IMG/VR virus record: IMGVR_UViG_3300023117_000010
Coordinates: 1 to 64,000 of that record
From: a virus
DNA length: 64,000 nucleotides
Reading direction: 5' to 3' (one strand)
Positions 1-27,370 of this stretch are shown piece after piece (position 1 is the first letter of the stretch; every line of letters begins with the position of its first letter). The translations under genes and the position numbers were made by a program. The notes under the pieces were generated by a model. It made no database searches. It saw nothing but the letters and a program-made list of their open reading frames with translations, and was not told the origin of the DNA.

Positions 1-2866
1 GAACCCAACTTTCTTCAGATCCTGCAAATATGTCTATTAAATATTCTGAGGCGTGGTCTATAAAATTATCATAAAAATCTTGAGTTTTACTAGCAGCACC
101 CACTTCGCGGTAAAGGCCGCCATAACTAGAAATGCTTTGAGATTGCATAAAATTAGGAACTATTGACAAATTATACATGGCTGCGGCTTGACCTTCCCAT
201 TTAGCCTCTTCTTGAGTGTGTTCTTCGTGTTCTTCGTTTTCAATATCATCCCAATTATCAACTGAAGTCTTTTTCCATTTAGAAGTCCTTCTCCACTTAG
301 ACAGAAGTGAAAGTTGTTGCTCATCAACTCTAGTGGGCAATTGTGAAATACCTTCTCCCTTATGTAAACCTCGTTCAAATCTTTGACGATAATCTGAAAA
401 GTCTGTTTCATCAAACTCAGACCAATTTAATAATTCGTCTTCTTCTGGATTAAACATTGAACGCAATTGATTCATTGAATTATATTTGTTTATAATTTTA
501 AGAATACTTGTTGCACGACTTTCATCTTCAGATCCTGATTCCCCCCAATTTTGATTTATTTTATTAACTTCAACAAGATTTTTTGCCAATTGTTTAGGAT
601 CTTCGCTCCAAATAGAGGATAGCCACTCGTTCCATTTTTCTTTATAATTAGGATCATTTGGATTTGTCATAGTCATCTTTTCAAAAGCATCTCTCCATCC
701 CCCACGGCGTTGATCTTCAAAACTAGGAATTATCAATAAGTCTTGATTTCTTGTTTGTTGACTTTGCATTATTTTAGCAAGTTGATCTACTTGGCCCGTT
801 CTTCTTGCATAATCTAATAGTTTTTGAAGATCTTCTTGAGAGATATCTTCTGGCAAAGAGGTTAATAATCTTGCCATATCAACAGGCTTATCTGGGCTTG
901 CTTCTGGCGGATAGATTCCATAATGCTCTGGTCTATAGTTTCTATCAAACCCCCCGGGACCGGCGTAAGGGTGTCGCCTCATATTTTCGTCATATTTTGA
1001 ATCAAATTCTTCTTCTTCATCAATAGCAATCATACTTGGATCATAGTTAGACTCTCCATCCATATTTCTAAACTCTTGCCATTCGGTTATATTGCGACCC
1101 CCGGGAAGAGTCGGTTTTTTATTAAAAAGTCGTTCAAACCCGTTGGGATCTGTCATAAATTGACGAATTCTTTTTCTATATTTTGCAAGAGGGTGAAGGT
1201 TTTGTTTTCCTTGAATTTGTTGAATAGAGCCGTCTTTATTTATTTCTAAAGTAGCGTGAGGTTTATTATTTGGACTTCTTAAAGAAACAATTTTTATTAG
1301 ACCTTGTTCTATTCTGTCTCCATATCCTTGACGACGAACACAGTGTTGCATAGTTTGACCTTCATAATCACACTCTTCTGGTGAAAGATCCCTTATAAAC
1401 CATCCATCGGGCCACTCATAAATAATTTTTTCGTCTTTTTTCTTTTCTTCATCTAAAGAAACTCCTTGAGACAGAAGTTCTAAGTCCCATTCTTGGATTT
1501 TATCAAAAATATCTTTTACTGAAAATTCCATGATGTTAACGCCACGACGAGTAGGAGAATTACTTCCATACCAATCTGCCCAATGAGAAAGAGTTGCTTC
1601 GTCTAAAAATCCTCTAAATTCAGTTCCTTCAATGGGAGTAGTTTGCATCAGTTCCACAAAAGCATCTTCGCCTTCTCCAACCATTGAAGGTTCTAATCTT
1701 TTCTTTTTATATTCTCTTACAATCCAAGGCAGAAAGTCATCAACTTTTTCGGGAAGACCTTTCATCCAGTCAAGAACCTTTTGCCCCTCTTCTGTTCTAA
1801 GCACTTTAGGATCGTCTTTAATAATCTTATCTAGTTTAGATGCGGTTACTTGTTTCCACTTAGATTGTTTTTGTTCTGGTCTATAAAAACCACAAGTGCA
1901 TGGTTTCCCTGTATGAACATTTTTATGAAGAGTAGACTTTGCAATTTTTTCACTTCTATATTTTTCTTTAGGTTTCATTTTTTTATCGCCAAGTATTTCT
2001 GATGCAGAAGGTACATAGTCGCCAGAATAGGGGCTTGCCCAATTCATTTGAGGAATAAATGGGACTTCTCCACTTTCTTCTAATTTCTTTCTTTCATTAA
2101 TTTCGTCTTGTAATTCTTGAGGGAGTTCATCTATTAATAAATCATGATCTGTTTTAAATTTAAAATTAGGAAGAGTATCTGGTCTTTGTTTTTTGGGTAC
2201 AAGAAGTTTTTTTTGTTTTCTGTTTGGAACACGCTCCCGAATTGGCGGCGTTTGTTTTTTTGTTTTTGGATGAAGCCTATGCTCCTTAAGACTTCTAGAA
2301 GGAATATTGTTTTCTTGTAAATAATTTTTAATTGCATTTGTAGAAACATTATATTTTTTTGCAAGTGATGCTACGCTTTCTCCCCCAACGTATTCAGCGA
2401 TAATATCTCTTAAAAACTCAGAACCTTTTGTGTCGCGGATTGATGGGCGCGCTGATTTTTTATCCGGCAAACTTTTATAATTTTTTTGTCCTTCAACGTA
2501 TTCACAAGCCTTAGCGCGAGTCATCCCCTTTGGAGGCTCAATAGAGCCATTACAAATACCTTGCATATATCTAAATTGGGCTTTACTACGAGCGGGCGCT
2601 TCTTTTAAAAGATAAGATTGTTTTTGATTTTGTTTCATAGAAAAAGAATAGGCAGGATACATACTCTGAAGTTCAGCAATAAGTTGTTCTCTAATTCCAC
2701 CTTCGCGCCAATACTTACGAGGAATATAGATATAATCTACAATAAGATTTTTATTATTATTATCAACTTTATAAAACAATTGACCTACCGGAAGTTGGTC
2801 TTCTTCTAAGACCGCAAATAGTTTACCATTTTGTCCTTCTTCTATGTTTTGAAAATCAACTTTCAT
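1..2866 (-). CDS. GNAT-like / HTH / PcfJ-like fusion protein, 3' end beyond window
   Basis: The reading frame is open from ATG 2866 to the left edge (955 codons, no stop), so the C-terminus lies outside the window. Residues about 1-75 look like a GNAT acyltransferase half, with YIPRKYWREGGIREQLIAEL resembling the acetyl-CoA-binding segment. Residues about 145-195 contain a helix-turn-helix (SVASLAKKYNVSTNAIKNYL). Residues about 485-555 match the PcfJ-like pattern: an E-G-x-x-M-x-HCV core (EGQTMQHCV), a Tyr, then SLR and a Q-x-x-G-x-x-N end (QIQGKQN). KWK motifs (SKWKQVTAS at about 335, TSKWKKTS near 860) resemble the linkers of the adjacent giant protein. The gap between the two genes is 37 bp and they probably share a transcript. 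The role is unknown; a virion or injected protein is a guess. Confidence 0.8.
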   Translation of the reverse strand, partial: MKVDFQNIEEGQNGKLFAVLEEDQLPVGQLFYKVDNNNKNLIVDYIYIPRKYWREGGIREQLIAELQSMYPAYSFSMKQNQKQSYLLKEAPARSKAQFRYMQGICNGSIEPPKGMTRAKACEYVEGQKNYKSLPDKKSARPSIRDTKGSEFLRDIIAEYVGGESVASLAKKYNVSTNAIKNYLQENNIPSRSLKEHRLHPKTKKQTPPIRERVPNRKQKKLLVPKKQRPDTLPNFKFKTDHDLLIDELPQELQDEINERKKLEESGEVPFIPQMNWASPYSGDYVPSASEILGDKKMKPKEKYRSEKIAKSTLHKNVHTGKPCTCGFYRPEQKQSKWKQVTASKLDKIIKDDPKVLRTEEGQKVLDWMKGLPEKVDDFLPWIVREYKKKRLEPSMVGEGEDAFVELMQTTPIEGTEFRGFLDEATLSHWADWYGSNSPTRRGVNIMEFSVKDIFDKIQEWDLELLSQGVSLDEEKKKDEKIIYEWPDGWFIRDLSPEECDYEGQTMQHCVRRQGYGDRIEQGLIKIVSLRSPNNKPHATLEINKDGSIQQIQGKQNLHPLAKYRKRIRQFMTDPNGFERLFNKKPTLPGGRNITEWQEFRNMDGESNYDPSMIAIDEEEEFDSKYDENMRRHPYAGPGGFDRNYRPEHYGIYPPEASPDKPVDMARLLTSLPEDISQEDLQKLLDYARRTGQVDQLAKIMQSQQTRNQDLLIIPSFEDQRRGGWRDAFEKMTMTNPNDPNYKEKWNEWLSSIWSEDPKQLAKNLVEVNKINQNWGESGSEDESRATSILKIINKYNSMNQLRSMFNPEEDELLNWSEFDETDFSDYRQRFERGLHKGEGISQLPTRVDEQQLSLLSKWRRTSKWKKTSVDNWDDIENEEHEEHTQEEAKWEGQAAAMYNLSIVPNFMQSQSISSYGGLYREVGAASKTQDFYDNFIDHASEYLIDIFAGSEESWV

Positions 2867-2903: not shown

Positions 2904-5900
2904 CTATACACATATTTCTTTTAATTTAGATTCTTTATATCCTTTTCTGTAATTTATTGCTTCTTTTAGCGAAGATTCAAAAACATCAGGGTAAATTCCT
3001 AGTTCTTCGTATTCAGGATTAAAGTCTGGATCGTGTTCTTGAAGTATTTCTTCTACAGGTCTAAGACCATCTCCATCTAATCCTTCTCCAGTTTCGGGAT
3101 TAATTAAGAAAAAGTGCCACGCCCCGTCATTTGGCCCTTCAGCAATTTTATAGATCGGCCAGCCTGTTTCTTGATGTTTTTTTATTGCAAAAAGGTCGCA
3201 GTCTCCGTGTCTCCAATTATTATTTGATTCTTTATATCCAACAGGCTGAATGATAAGATCATATGGATGCTTGCCATGATCAAAGTGGAATGACCAGCGC
3301 TTCTTTTCTTCGTAAAGTTTTAGATCTTCCATTGCATGCCCGTCTTGCTCTTTTGCTTCGGAATCAATCTTTTCATTATCATGAGGATTTTCTTTATTTA
3401 TATATCCGTCTTTAAGTTGTTTAAGCCACTTGAGGGTTTGTTTTTTTACTTCTTCCCAACTTCCAGTAGTGAGGATATCGTGGCCCATCTCTCCATCAAG
3501 AACGGCTTCCCATGCGTCTTTTTTATTTGCTGAAGTTTTGTTACCATTAAATAATCTTTTAAACTCTTCGTGATAAGTATTTTTAAATATAAGATAAAGA
3601 TTATTTTTATCATCATTTGATAAAGAATTCATCAATTCTTTTTCTGCTTGATCCATTTCATAAACAGGCATTGTATTATTAAAAAGATGATTCCACAACG
3701 CTTCTTTTGCTATTTGTAGAAGATAATAAATATAAAATTTTTCAATTGAAATTCCTTTTTCAAAAAGTTGTTTTAATCTTTTTTCTCTAAAAATGTCAAC
3801 TTGGTTTGGATCATAAAAACGATTATTAAGAGTTTCTTGAGTTATCCCAGATGAAGATAGATCTATATCATCTACAAGATATTTTAATTGTTCATTACTA
3901 CTTCCGGGAATTGCATTTCCAAATGGGTGATTTTCAAATTGTTCCCATATTTGTTTTGCTTTTCTAATCGCTTCTTTTTTTGTAACTTCTGGGAGAGATT
4001 TTCTTGCAGGAATAAGTTTTTCTCTAACAAAAGAGTCTGTAAATTCACTATTTTCAAACATAGCGGTTTTTGAATACATACCCCATTGTCCCTTTGGTCT
4101 TGCATATTCTGCTGGTTGTGGATTATGCTTAGGACGAACTATTTTCCATTTTTTATTATTAATGACTTTTTCTTCAGGCTTGTCATCTTCTTCAATAGAA
4201 TCTGGAATTCCTTCAAAGGTTGTTTCTGCAACTTCATCTCCAATTGCCATTTGTCTTTGCCCATGAGAACTTGTTTTCTTTGCAATATTAATTATTTCTT
4301 TATTATTAAGTTTATTAAAATCTATGTAGTTGTGAACTATGCCATATTCCCAACCAGCCTTATAACTCTGTTCTAGTATTTCCCAGAATTTTTCCCAGTC
4401 ATCGTTGGGAATATCTGTTTTTTCAAAAAAATGAGTATAATTTTTAACTATAATACGAACGCCTTCTCCAACAATTATTGGTTCAAAATTATTTCTTAAT
4501 CTCTCTCTAAATAATTCTAATTGGTTTGGATTGTAATGTCTATCTGGTTCAACATAATCGTCTGATTTATTAAGTTCATTATAATTAATTCTGGCTAACG
4601 CTGTTTGTGCATTATGAAATCCATTAACAACACCTTGAAAACGAATATTATCAGCAACTAAAGCATTTTTTGAAGATTTTAAGTCTTCCGACTCTTCAAT
4701 TACTTGATCTTCGTGGTCATTAAGCAAAAAGTCTATTTGAGCCTCTTCTTCATCCCAGTCAGATGAAATAATTTTCCATTTAGATAATTTTGAAGATGTT
4801 TCTTCTTTAAATGTCTCATCCCACGCTTTATAAAAAGCATTATTATAAATTAATTCATTTTCTTTTGTGTTTGTAATATCAAATATGTCTTTTAATATAA
4901 TCTTTTTTTCTAAATATCCTAACTCTAACATATAATATTCTATTCGATCCAGAATAAGCCATTGAAGTTCTGTTTTAAACGATCCAACCCAATAAACTTC
5001 ATCTTTCAAAACATTATCTGCCATAGTTCTGAGTTGTTCAATTCCTAATCCTAATTGATTTTTATTAATTAAACGATTTTCTTCCGTTTGATGAAAATGA
5101 ATCATTTTTTCTTCATATGTATTTAAAGGAGAAATTATCTCACCATCATCGTCCAACCATACTTTTTTTTCTTTATCGTAATGTTTATTTAATCTATCAG
5201 TGTTATATCTATCAATCCATGCTTTTAAAATTCTAGAGGCTTCCCACCCGGCTCTTTGAGGTAATAGAACAGGAACTTCTTCTATTATTTTATTTATAAT
5301 TTGTTTTGTACTGTCAGTATAGTCGTCATGAGAAGCGATCTTACCACGATATTGAAGATCTTCTTTTACCCAGTCATAAATTTCTTGCCAATTTATATTT
5401 TCTACTTTAAGTAAATATCTTTCAATATCTTCTGGCTCTGGTTCTCCAAAGAAACCAAATTGCATCTGTTCCATCTCTTGAACATATTGCTTTTGCTTTT
5501 GCAAACTAAACGGAAACTGTTTTCTTGCTTGCTGTTTCCATGTTTTTCTAAGTTCATTTTTTTGGGCTTCTACATCTTGTTCGTCTGATATATTTTCCCA
5601 ATTTTGAGCAATTCCTTGATTATAAGGATTAAGCACATTTTCAATCATCCAATTAGCAAGGTCTTGAACAGAGCCACCTTGACGAACAATCTTTTCCATT
5701 GTCTTAATAGAAGGACGCAATATTCTTGAGTCCGATAATATTTGTTCAACTAAAATTTCTGTTTCTGGAGTAGACCAATTTTCATATTGAGAAGCAGTTT
5801 TAGATTGTTGCCTCATCCAATCAACAACTTGTGGACTTGGAGAAGCAGGTTCTGGCTCGGGCAACTCACCCTTTACGTTATAAAGATCCATCATTTCTTG

Positions 5901-26764: not shown

Positions 26765-26956
26765 ATGATTACACTAAAAGAGGCACAAGAACTTGCTGAA
26801 ATTATTGGATGGCTAAATGCTATTTGCATGGACAGTCAGCCAGAGGACACTATTGTTATTACACCGGGTTTTAAGAGTGAGATTCGTAGGGCACTTGAAA
26901 TTGCTAACTTGGTTCAGTATGATCTTGAAAACAATAACCGCTCTGATGAGTCCTAA
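26765..26956 (+). CDS. Small helical protein whose 3' end overlaps a hammerhead ribozyme (63 aa)
   Basis: ATG 26765 starts MITLKEAQELAEIIGWLN; an in-frame TTG at 26750 is less likely. Two helices (TLKEAQELAEIIGWLNAIC, KSEIRRALEIANLVQYDL). The last six codons and the TAA lie inside the ribozyme (26938-26986), so the coding sequence supplies stem I, the catalytic core and half of stem II. Self-cleavage would cut the mRNA 25 nt after the stop. A 10-codon frame (26728-26760) lies just upstream and could be a leader peptide. Confidence 0.7.
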   Translation: MITLKEAQELAEIIGWLNAICMDSQPEDTIVITPGFKSEIRRALEIANLVQYDLENNNRSDES

Positions 26957-26986
26957 AGAGGACGAAACGCCGTGAGGCGTCAGCGG
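26938..26986 (+). ncRNA. Hammerhead ribozyme, stem-I-open (type I), cleavage after 26981
   Basis: All conserved elements are present. Stem I: CCGCT (26938-26942) with AGCGG (26982-26986), 5 bp. Core CTGATGA (26943-26949). Stem II: GTCC (26950-26953) with GGAC (26960-26963), loop TAAAGA. Core GAAA (26964-26967). Stem III: CGCC (26968-26971) with GGCG (26976-26979), closed by GTGA, a GNRA tetraloop; A26967 pairs with T26980. The cleavage triplet is GTC (26979-26981). Every invariant base of the hammerhead consensus is in place. Loop-loop contacts that speed natural hammerheads cannot be judged by eye. Confidence 0.92.
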
Positions 26987-27238
26987 GATTATGGGAGAGT
27001 CTAAGAGGTTGCCACCAATTAGATAATCCGAACTCCGTGGCAACGGGGGAAAGCAGGGGGCAACACGCATGGGGGTTGTCCATCTAGACCTGACATAAAC
27101 CTGCAATACGACCCATGTGATAACAACCCGAATAATGATCTGTTCGGGCTACATAATATAACTAAATATAATAACTAAAGGAATCGGTTGTCGGTGACGG
27201 GTGAGCAGGTAGGTGTAGATCCAATTTGGTGACACCAC
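26987..27238 (+). other. Structured non-coding stretch between ribozyme and tRNA-like gene
   Basis: No gene is visible in 252 bp. Strong RNA hairpins are: GTTGCCAC with GTGGCAAC (about 27008-27044); GGGCAAC with GTTGTCC (about 27057-27081, one G-U pair); CCCGAA with TTCGGG (about 27128-27149). GGGTTGT can alternatively pair with ACAACCC, so the fold may switch. After ribozyme cleavage this would be the 5' part of the downstream RNA. It might be a trans-acting RNA or a protective leader; no known family is recognised. Confidence 0.5.
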
Positions 27239-27266
27239 TTGACTTGACTGTGGAACCGTCTATAAT
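27239..27266 (+). promoter_or_regulatory. Near-consensus promoter before the tRNA-like gene
   Basis: TTGACT (27239-27244), 16-bp spacer, TATAAT (27261-27266). The best sigma-70-type match in the window. It lies 7 bp before the first base of the tRNA-like gene, so the transcript would start about at its 5' end. The other rightward promoter cassettes share the 16-bp spacing. Confidence 0.75.
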
Positions 27267-27272
27267 ATTTAT

Positions 27273-27370
27273 GCCCCTAATGGTCTAGTGGCAACGACGC
27301 CGGTATCACACAAGGACGCTTGTGATGCTTATGCGGAAGTTTATCGCGGGTTCGACTCCCGCTAGGGGCT
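27273..27370 (+). tRNA. tRNA-like gene, possible tRNA-Val(CAC) with about 20 extra bases
   Basis: Acceptor stem GCCCCTA pairs with TAGGGGC (7 bp). The D-arm GTC-TAGTGGCAAC-GAC is canonical, and the T-arm GCGGG-TTCGACT-CCCGC is perfect. CCGGT followed by loop ATCACAC gives U33, anticodon CAC and A37, which reads as valine. The expected 3' half of the anticodon stem (ACCGG) does not follow: about 20 extra bases intervene and only a partial GCGG match appears later. ATCACA and TGTGAT could form a competing hairpin there. Length is 98 nt against about 76. CCA is not encoded. It may be disrupted, inserted into, or a tRNA mimic. Confidence 0.5.

Follow-up and report, generated by a model that had tools for sequence, protein, structure and literature searches.

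Hammerhead ribozymes have been described from intergenic regions of phages and prophages, including PaP3, Bcep176 and the ardA cluster of A. tumefaciens. They were proposed to split long transcripts, and self-cleavage was demonstrated for some, both in vitro and in E. coli (Perreault et al., 2011; PMC3088659). The function of bacterial and phage hammerheads was considered an open question in a 2017 review (PMC6155905). Theta HDV-like ribozymes, a different class of self-cleaving RNA, adjoin real tRNAs in gut phages (PMC10879173).

Here we describe a type I hammerhead in a window of 64 kb (the whole stretch of DNA analysed), which belongs to a 92-kb phage contig in IMG/VR. The terminase of this phage is distantly related (36-38% identity) to those of Rhodococcus phage E3, Gordonia phages and a large group of mycobacteriophages. 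Like type I members of Rfam family RF00163, the element has a complete catalytic core, three stems, an open stem I and a GUC triplet; unlike them, it scores below the gathering score of the family and is located at the border between a phage gene and a non-coding RNA rather than in eukaryotic repeats. The intergenic phage setting is shared with the hammerheads of Perreault et al. (2011), but those flank protein genes, whereas this ribozyme stands at the head of a conserved non-coding module that includes a tRNA-like element. The proximity of a self-cleaving RNA to a tRNA-like gene in a phage also recalls the theta ribozymes, from which the locus differs in ribozyme class, in its distance of about 290 nt upstream, and in that the tRNA-like element has no normal anticodon arm. 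The core is the same as that of RAGATH-1 hammerheads (RF03152), but the alignment to that model is weak (22.2 bits, far below the gathering score of 56.3). The ribozyme belongs to a known class; the non-coding module appears to be undescribed.

Identification of the hammerhead

The whole canonical type I hammerhead occupies 49 bases of the window and includes the following elements:

26938 to 26986, forward strand: type I hammerhead ribozyme, predicted cleavage between 26981 and 26982
26938 to 26942 (CCGCT) and 26982 to 26986 (AGCGG), forward strand: stem I
26943 to 26949, forward strand: core box CTGATGA
26950 to 26953 (GTCC) and 26960 to 26963 (GGAC), forward strand: stem II, with a fifth pair between T26954 and A26959
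26964 to 26967, forward strand: core box GAAA
26967 to 26971 (ACGCC) and 26976 to 26980 (GGCGT), forward strand: stem III, with loop GTGA
26981, forward strand: C17 of the GUC cleavage triplet, in which T26980 and C26981 form the UH

The preliminary description of this DNA had reported every invariant hammerhead element in these positions, and the predicted fold, the Rfam alignment and a motif scan all agree with it. When the surrounding 75 nt are folded, the minimum-free-energy structure is precisely the hammerhead, with stem I open and stems II and III closed. A scanner that requires the invariant core and stems of at least 5, 4 and 5 bp found the element at 26938-26986 as its sole match in the window. 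Applied to simulated sequence with the dinucleotide content of the window, it returned 4 matches in 623 Mb, a chance expectation of about 4e-4 motifs of such quality per 64 kb.

The covariance-model search that had been proposed as a check agreed in one respect and fell short in another. RF00163 aligns end to end at 26937-26987 (28.5 bits, E = 9e-5 for 801 nt), but the gathering score of 34 was not reached here or by any other match in the window. This score is a curation threshold and not a biochemical feature. It is reached by only 2 of 18 other loci with phage type I hammerheads, and the cut-off is therefore not informative in this case; most of the phage type I hammerheads tested go undetected with it.

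Conservation among related phages

Searches with the terminase identified a near-identical contig (G005) and three relatives with 83-84% identity in this protein (G001, G002 and G003), of which G002 and G003 are identical in the hammerhead region. All are metagenomic contigs, possibly incomplete, and the set provides three independent sequences. The hammerhead is present in every relative whose contig holds the region (G001, G002/G003 and G005), and the region was not found in G004, which is a short contig. Searching for the wider phage family by terminase alignment added only one short fragment.

Across the three distinct hammerhead sequences the core bases are all intact, and loops II and III vary. 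One pair in stem I and one in stem III change from C-G to U-A with compensation; stem II is invariant. In these sequences 45 of 45 pair cells are intact (100%, versus 33-51% when the partners are slid) and 54 of 500 shuffles match the two compensated pairs, counts that are small because only three distinct sequences exist. Covariation among homologues thus lends the helices modest support from three distinct sequences. The compensatory changes support the view that the hammerhead is kept by selection. From sequence and covariation we infer that the element is an active type I ribozyme; that it is a real one, located at the 3' end of a gene, was the central proposal of the preliminary description and is borne out by the changes in the relatives.

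The score below the Rfam threshold could be taken to indicate an inactive relic or a chance motif. Given the low chance expectation per window, the 16 of 18 other phage type I hammerheads that the same cut-off misses, and conservation with compensatory changes across phages with about 84% identity in their terminase, we regard this as highly improbable.

The gene upstream

The ribozyme is preceded and overlapped by a small open reading frame:

26765 to 26956, forward strand: ORF of 63 aa, with its stop codon TAA (26954 to 26956) in loop II of the ribozyme

The ORF ends inside the hammerhead, as had been noted earlier. It has no PHROG match and is not similar to its positional counterpart in G002. 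That counterpart, an unrelated ORF of about 57 aa, likewise extends through the ribozyme, stops in loop II and ends in RSDES. The ORF in G001 is similar to that of G002, and its TAG stop is immediately before stem I. The shared C-terminal RSDES is merely the ribozyme read as codons. Because the upstream ORFs differ and the stop in G001 precedes the ribozyme, we conclude that the ribozyme constrains the RNA and that the protein tail follows. The same observations lead us to reject the earlier suggestion that coding and catalytic constraints coincide here; the overlap of gene and ribozyme is incidental. Loss of the core bases in phages that keep the protein had been named as evidence that would count against the ribozyme. 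The relatives show the reverse, a core that is kept and a protein that is different.

The RNA directly downstream of the cleavage site

Two structured RNAs were identified at the cleavage site, one in the relatives and one in the window:

L030 1366 to 1506 (G002) and L033 1373 to 1506 (G001), reverse strand: covarying multibranched RNA of about 130 nt that starts at the cleavage site
26982 to 27105, forward strand: predicted folded domain of the window (fold z-score -3.55 versus shuffles)

Between G001 and G002, the hammerhead and the RNA that follows are about 82-96% identical per 50 nt, versus about 50-68% in the upstream coding DNA; for the roughly 130 nt that begin at the cleavage site the range is 84-96%. 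The genes downstream of the RNA do not align meaningfully. The RNA has the same minimum-energy structure in both phages (z = -3.34 for a longer stretch of G001, -4.79 for G002). Three of its pairs are doubly compensated, four changes are one-sided, and no pair is broken. It has no Rfam match up to an E-value of 5 and no blastn match better than 0.4 in 50,697 phage records, and its assignment to a known family was rejected on this basis.

The domain in the window is otherwise known only from the near-identical contig. The 3' strand of hammerhead stem I takes part in its predicted closing helix (GCGGG.UUAUG with CAUAA.CCUGC), as in the RNA of the relatives. A covariance model of the G001/G002 RNA (R1) gave no convincing match, either in the window or over the full contig, and homology between the two structured stretches was rejected. 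Thus, the RNA behind the ribozyme is replaceable, or is not the point.

We also considered a kinetic switch, in which the downstream closing helix displaces stem I. Folding at full length disfavours stem I in all three sequences. This is no evidence for a switch, because shuffled downstream sequence disfavours it nearly as often (22-46% of shuffles are as low), and the idea was rejected.

The tRNA-like element and its promoter-like sequence

Further downstream, the module includes a conserved block, a promoter-like sequence and the tRNA-like element:

27173 to 27209, forward strand: conserved non-coding block AACTAAAGGAATCGGTTGTCGGTGACGGGTGAGCAGG, from alignment with G002 and in part with G001
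27239 to 27266, forward strand: sigma-70-like promoter sequence TTGACT-16-TATAAT
27273 to 27370, forward strand: tRNA-like element with normal acceptor stem, D arm and T arm and a replaced anticodon arm
L030 1162 to 1257 and L033 about 1097 to 1194, reverse strand: tRNA-like element in the relatives

The preliminary description had placed one tRNA-like gene downstream of the ribozyme, and the element at 27273-27370 is that gene. Its acceptor stem is 7 bp long, the loop of its D arm contains GG, and its T arm contains TTCGACT. The canonical anticodon arm (5 bp with a 7-nt loop) is absent, and its place is taken in all three sequences by a long arm with a conserved CAAG-GACG-CTTG hairpin. ARAGORN predicts tRNA-Cys(ACA) at these coordinates, a call that requires a mismatch in the anticodon stem and an unusual anticodon, and the gathering score of the Rfam tRNA model (RF00005) was not reached there. 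The element is among the most conserved DNA of the neighbourhood. Searched as an exact pattern among 2.9 million viral contigs, it was identified only in this phage family, and searches of viral contigs for homologues of the module by DNA pattern gave the same family only. The pattern of the element had no match in 84,980 species genomes.

The sequence GTGGAACCGTCTATAAT, which includes the promoter-like -10, is invariant in all relatives, and the -35 is found only in the window and G002. The tRNA-like element thus seems to own a promoter, and a transcript shared with the ribozyme would not be required. Within the conserved block at 27173-27209 (CTAAAGGAATCGGTTGTCGGTGACGG), GACGG can pair in all relatives with a CCGTC that overlaps the start of the TATAAT box region.

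The retention of the tRNA-like element in both G001 and G002 would fit a ribozyme for tRNA maturation, analogous to the theta ribozymes, which the preliminary description had cited in favour of an RNA-processing role. However, theta ribozymes are described as cleaving adjacent to the tRNA, with a proposed role at the 3' trailer (PMC10879173), whereas here the cleavage site (26981/26982) is about 290 nt from the 5' end of the element (27273). Since this element has a replaced anticodon arm and is immediately preceded by a promoter-like sequence of its own, we consider processing of this kind very unlikely. Nor are phage hammerheads enriched near tRNAs (4 of 113, versus 2.2 expected), and an association with tRNAs as a general feature of phage hammerheads was rejected. 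In G001, at least 10 ordinary tRNAs are clustered about 70 kb from the hammerhead, with no hammerhead match near them.

Linkage through gene reordering and proposed role

In the window, the order of transcription is p24713, p26303, the segment from the hammerhead to the tRNA-like element, p27397 and p27554. In G002 it is p27397, p27554, the same segment, p26303 and p24713. The hammerhead and the tRNA-like element, about 290 nt away in the window, keep the same orientation. The neighbours have thus been reordered around a hammerhead and a tRNA-like element that stayed together on one strand. As judged from these sequences, the linkage survived both the reordering of genes and the exchange, or extreme divergence, of the intervening RNA, and it is our best argument that the ribozyme may serve the downstream RNA.

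Cleavage by hammerhead ribozymes leaves a cyclic phosphate on the upstream product and a 5'-OH on the downstream product. In the mechanism that we propose, a read-through phage transcript would be cut at 26981/26982, where the last codons of the upstream gene give way to the conserved non-coding module. On the upstream mRNA, the body of the ribozyme would remain as a short, structured 3' terminus that carries a 2',3'-cyclic phosphate. The RNA downstream would begin with a defined 5'-OH at AGCGG, right at the closing helix of the folded RNA, and would extend towards the tRNA-like element; a 5'-OH RNA heading into a structured stretch and a tRNA-like gene is the product that had been predicted earlier. 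We infer that the ribozyme is catalytic in vivo, that gene and module are co-transcribed, and that the products have these fates.

As the upstream gene is exchanged but the hammerhead remains linked to the downstream elements, the main selected role of the ribozyme is probably to define where the non-coding RNA begins at its 5' end. Trimming of the upstream mRNA would be a by-product or a second benefit. More tentatively, the hammerhead may replace a promoter or a nuclease as the maker of this 5' end and may be inherited with an undescribed tRNA-like RNA, the RNA between them and the surrounding genes being swappable. A ribozyme that is kept with its downstream non-coding RNA as the upstream gene changes offers a comparative handle on 5'-end definition of phage RNAs.

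Hammerheads in other phages

A degenerate hammerhead pattern identified at least 119 stretches in viral contigs (L034-L151). Complete type I hammerheads account for 119 of the 124 matches examined, this phage family included; parts of stems II and III are prescribed by the pattern, which biases the sample. Among 94 non-redundant phage type I hammerheads, 74 have a same-strand ORF of at least 60 aa with its stop no more than 25 nt from C3, compared with 13 expected for random positions. After clustering, such a stop was found in 62 of 74 clusters, and 46 clusters have the stop 5' of the core. The stops are located at the 5' edge of stem I (most commonly 4-5 nt before C3), in the UGA of the core or in loop II. 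Stops internal to the ribozyme end any frame that enters it, an effect that is inapplicable to the 46 clusters with a stop 5' of the core. Given this frequency, the position of the stop codon in the window is ordinary for the class. We did not find the regularity described in the mainly open-access literature searched.

These counts favour a general maker of mRNA 3' ends, in which a hammerhead at the stop codon would cut polycistronic mRNA and give the upstream gene a structured, cyclic-phosphate 3' end, the module being the next transcription unit. Also consistent with this is that a type I hammerhead leaves nearly its whole body on the upstream product. In most other phages a protein gene begins shortly after the hammerhead, and there 3'-end formation or separation of mRNAs is the simpler role. 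In this phage family, however, it is the downstream elements that are conserved and not the upstream gene. As the main role here we therefore consider 3'-end formation rather unlikely, and rank it next after definition of the 5' end.

The sites of the stops, at the 5' edge of stem I, in the UGA of the CUGA core and in loop II (the position in both the window and G002), would also suit a switch coupled to translation. Terminating ribosomes would keep the ribozyme unfolded, and cutting would wait until translation of the upstream gene stops. The position of the stops may, however, simply reflect compact genomes, and internal stops would arise in any entering frame; we regard such a switch as most improbable. 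The clustering of stops at precise positions relative to the core makes ideas of mRNA 3'-end formation and ribosome coupling directly testable.

Several other arrangements were observed. On the reverse strand of L057, around 4050-4200, 41 nt separate a type I hammerhead from a downstream tRNA-like sequence whose anticodon loop is defective (6 nt); this may be another, independent pairing of hammerhead and tRNA-like element. In the cultured Agrobacterium phage OLIVR1 (L155, 2496-2545), a type I hammerhead lies between the hypothetical genes gp12 and gp13. Type II-like arrangements were recognized by eye in the cultured phages R4 of Streptomyces (L160), Spernnie (L158), Wentworth (L156) and Yara (L159). 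In these, the order is GAAA, stem III, GTC, a stem I hairpin and CTGANGAG, and the arrangement either lies a short distance upstream of a protein gene or coincides with its start; the gene in R4 encodes an acetyltransferase.
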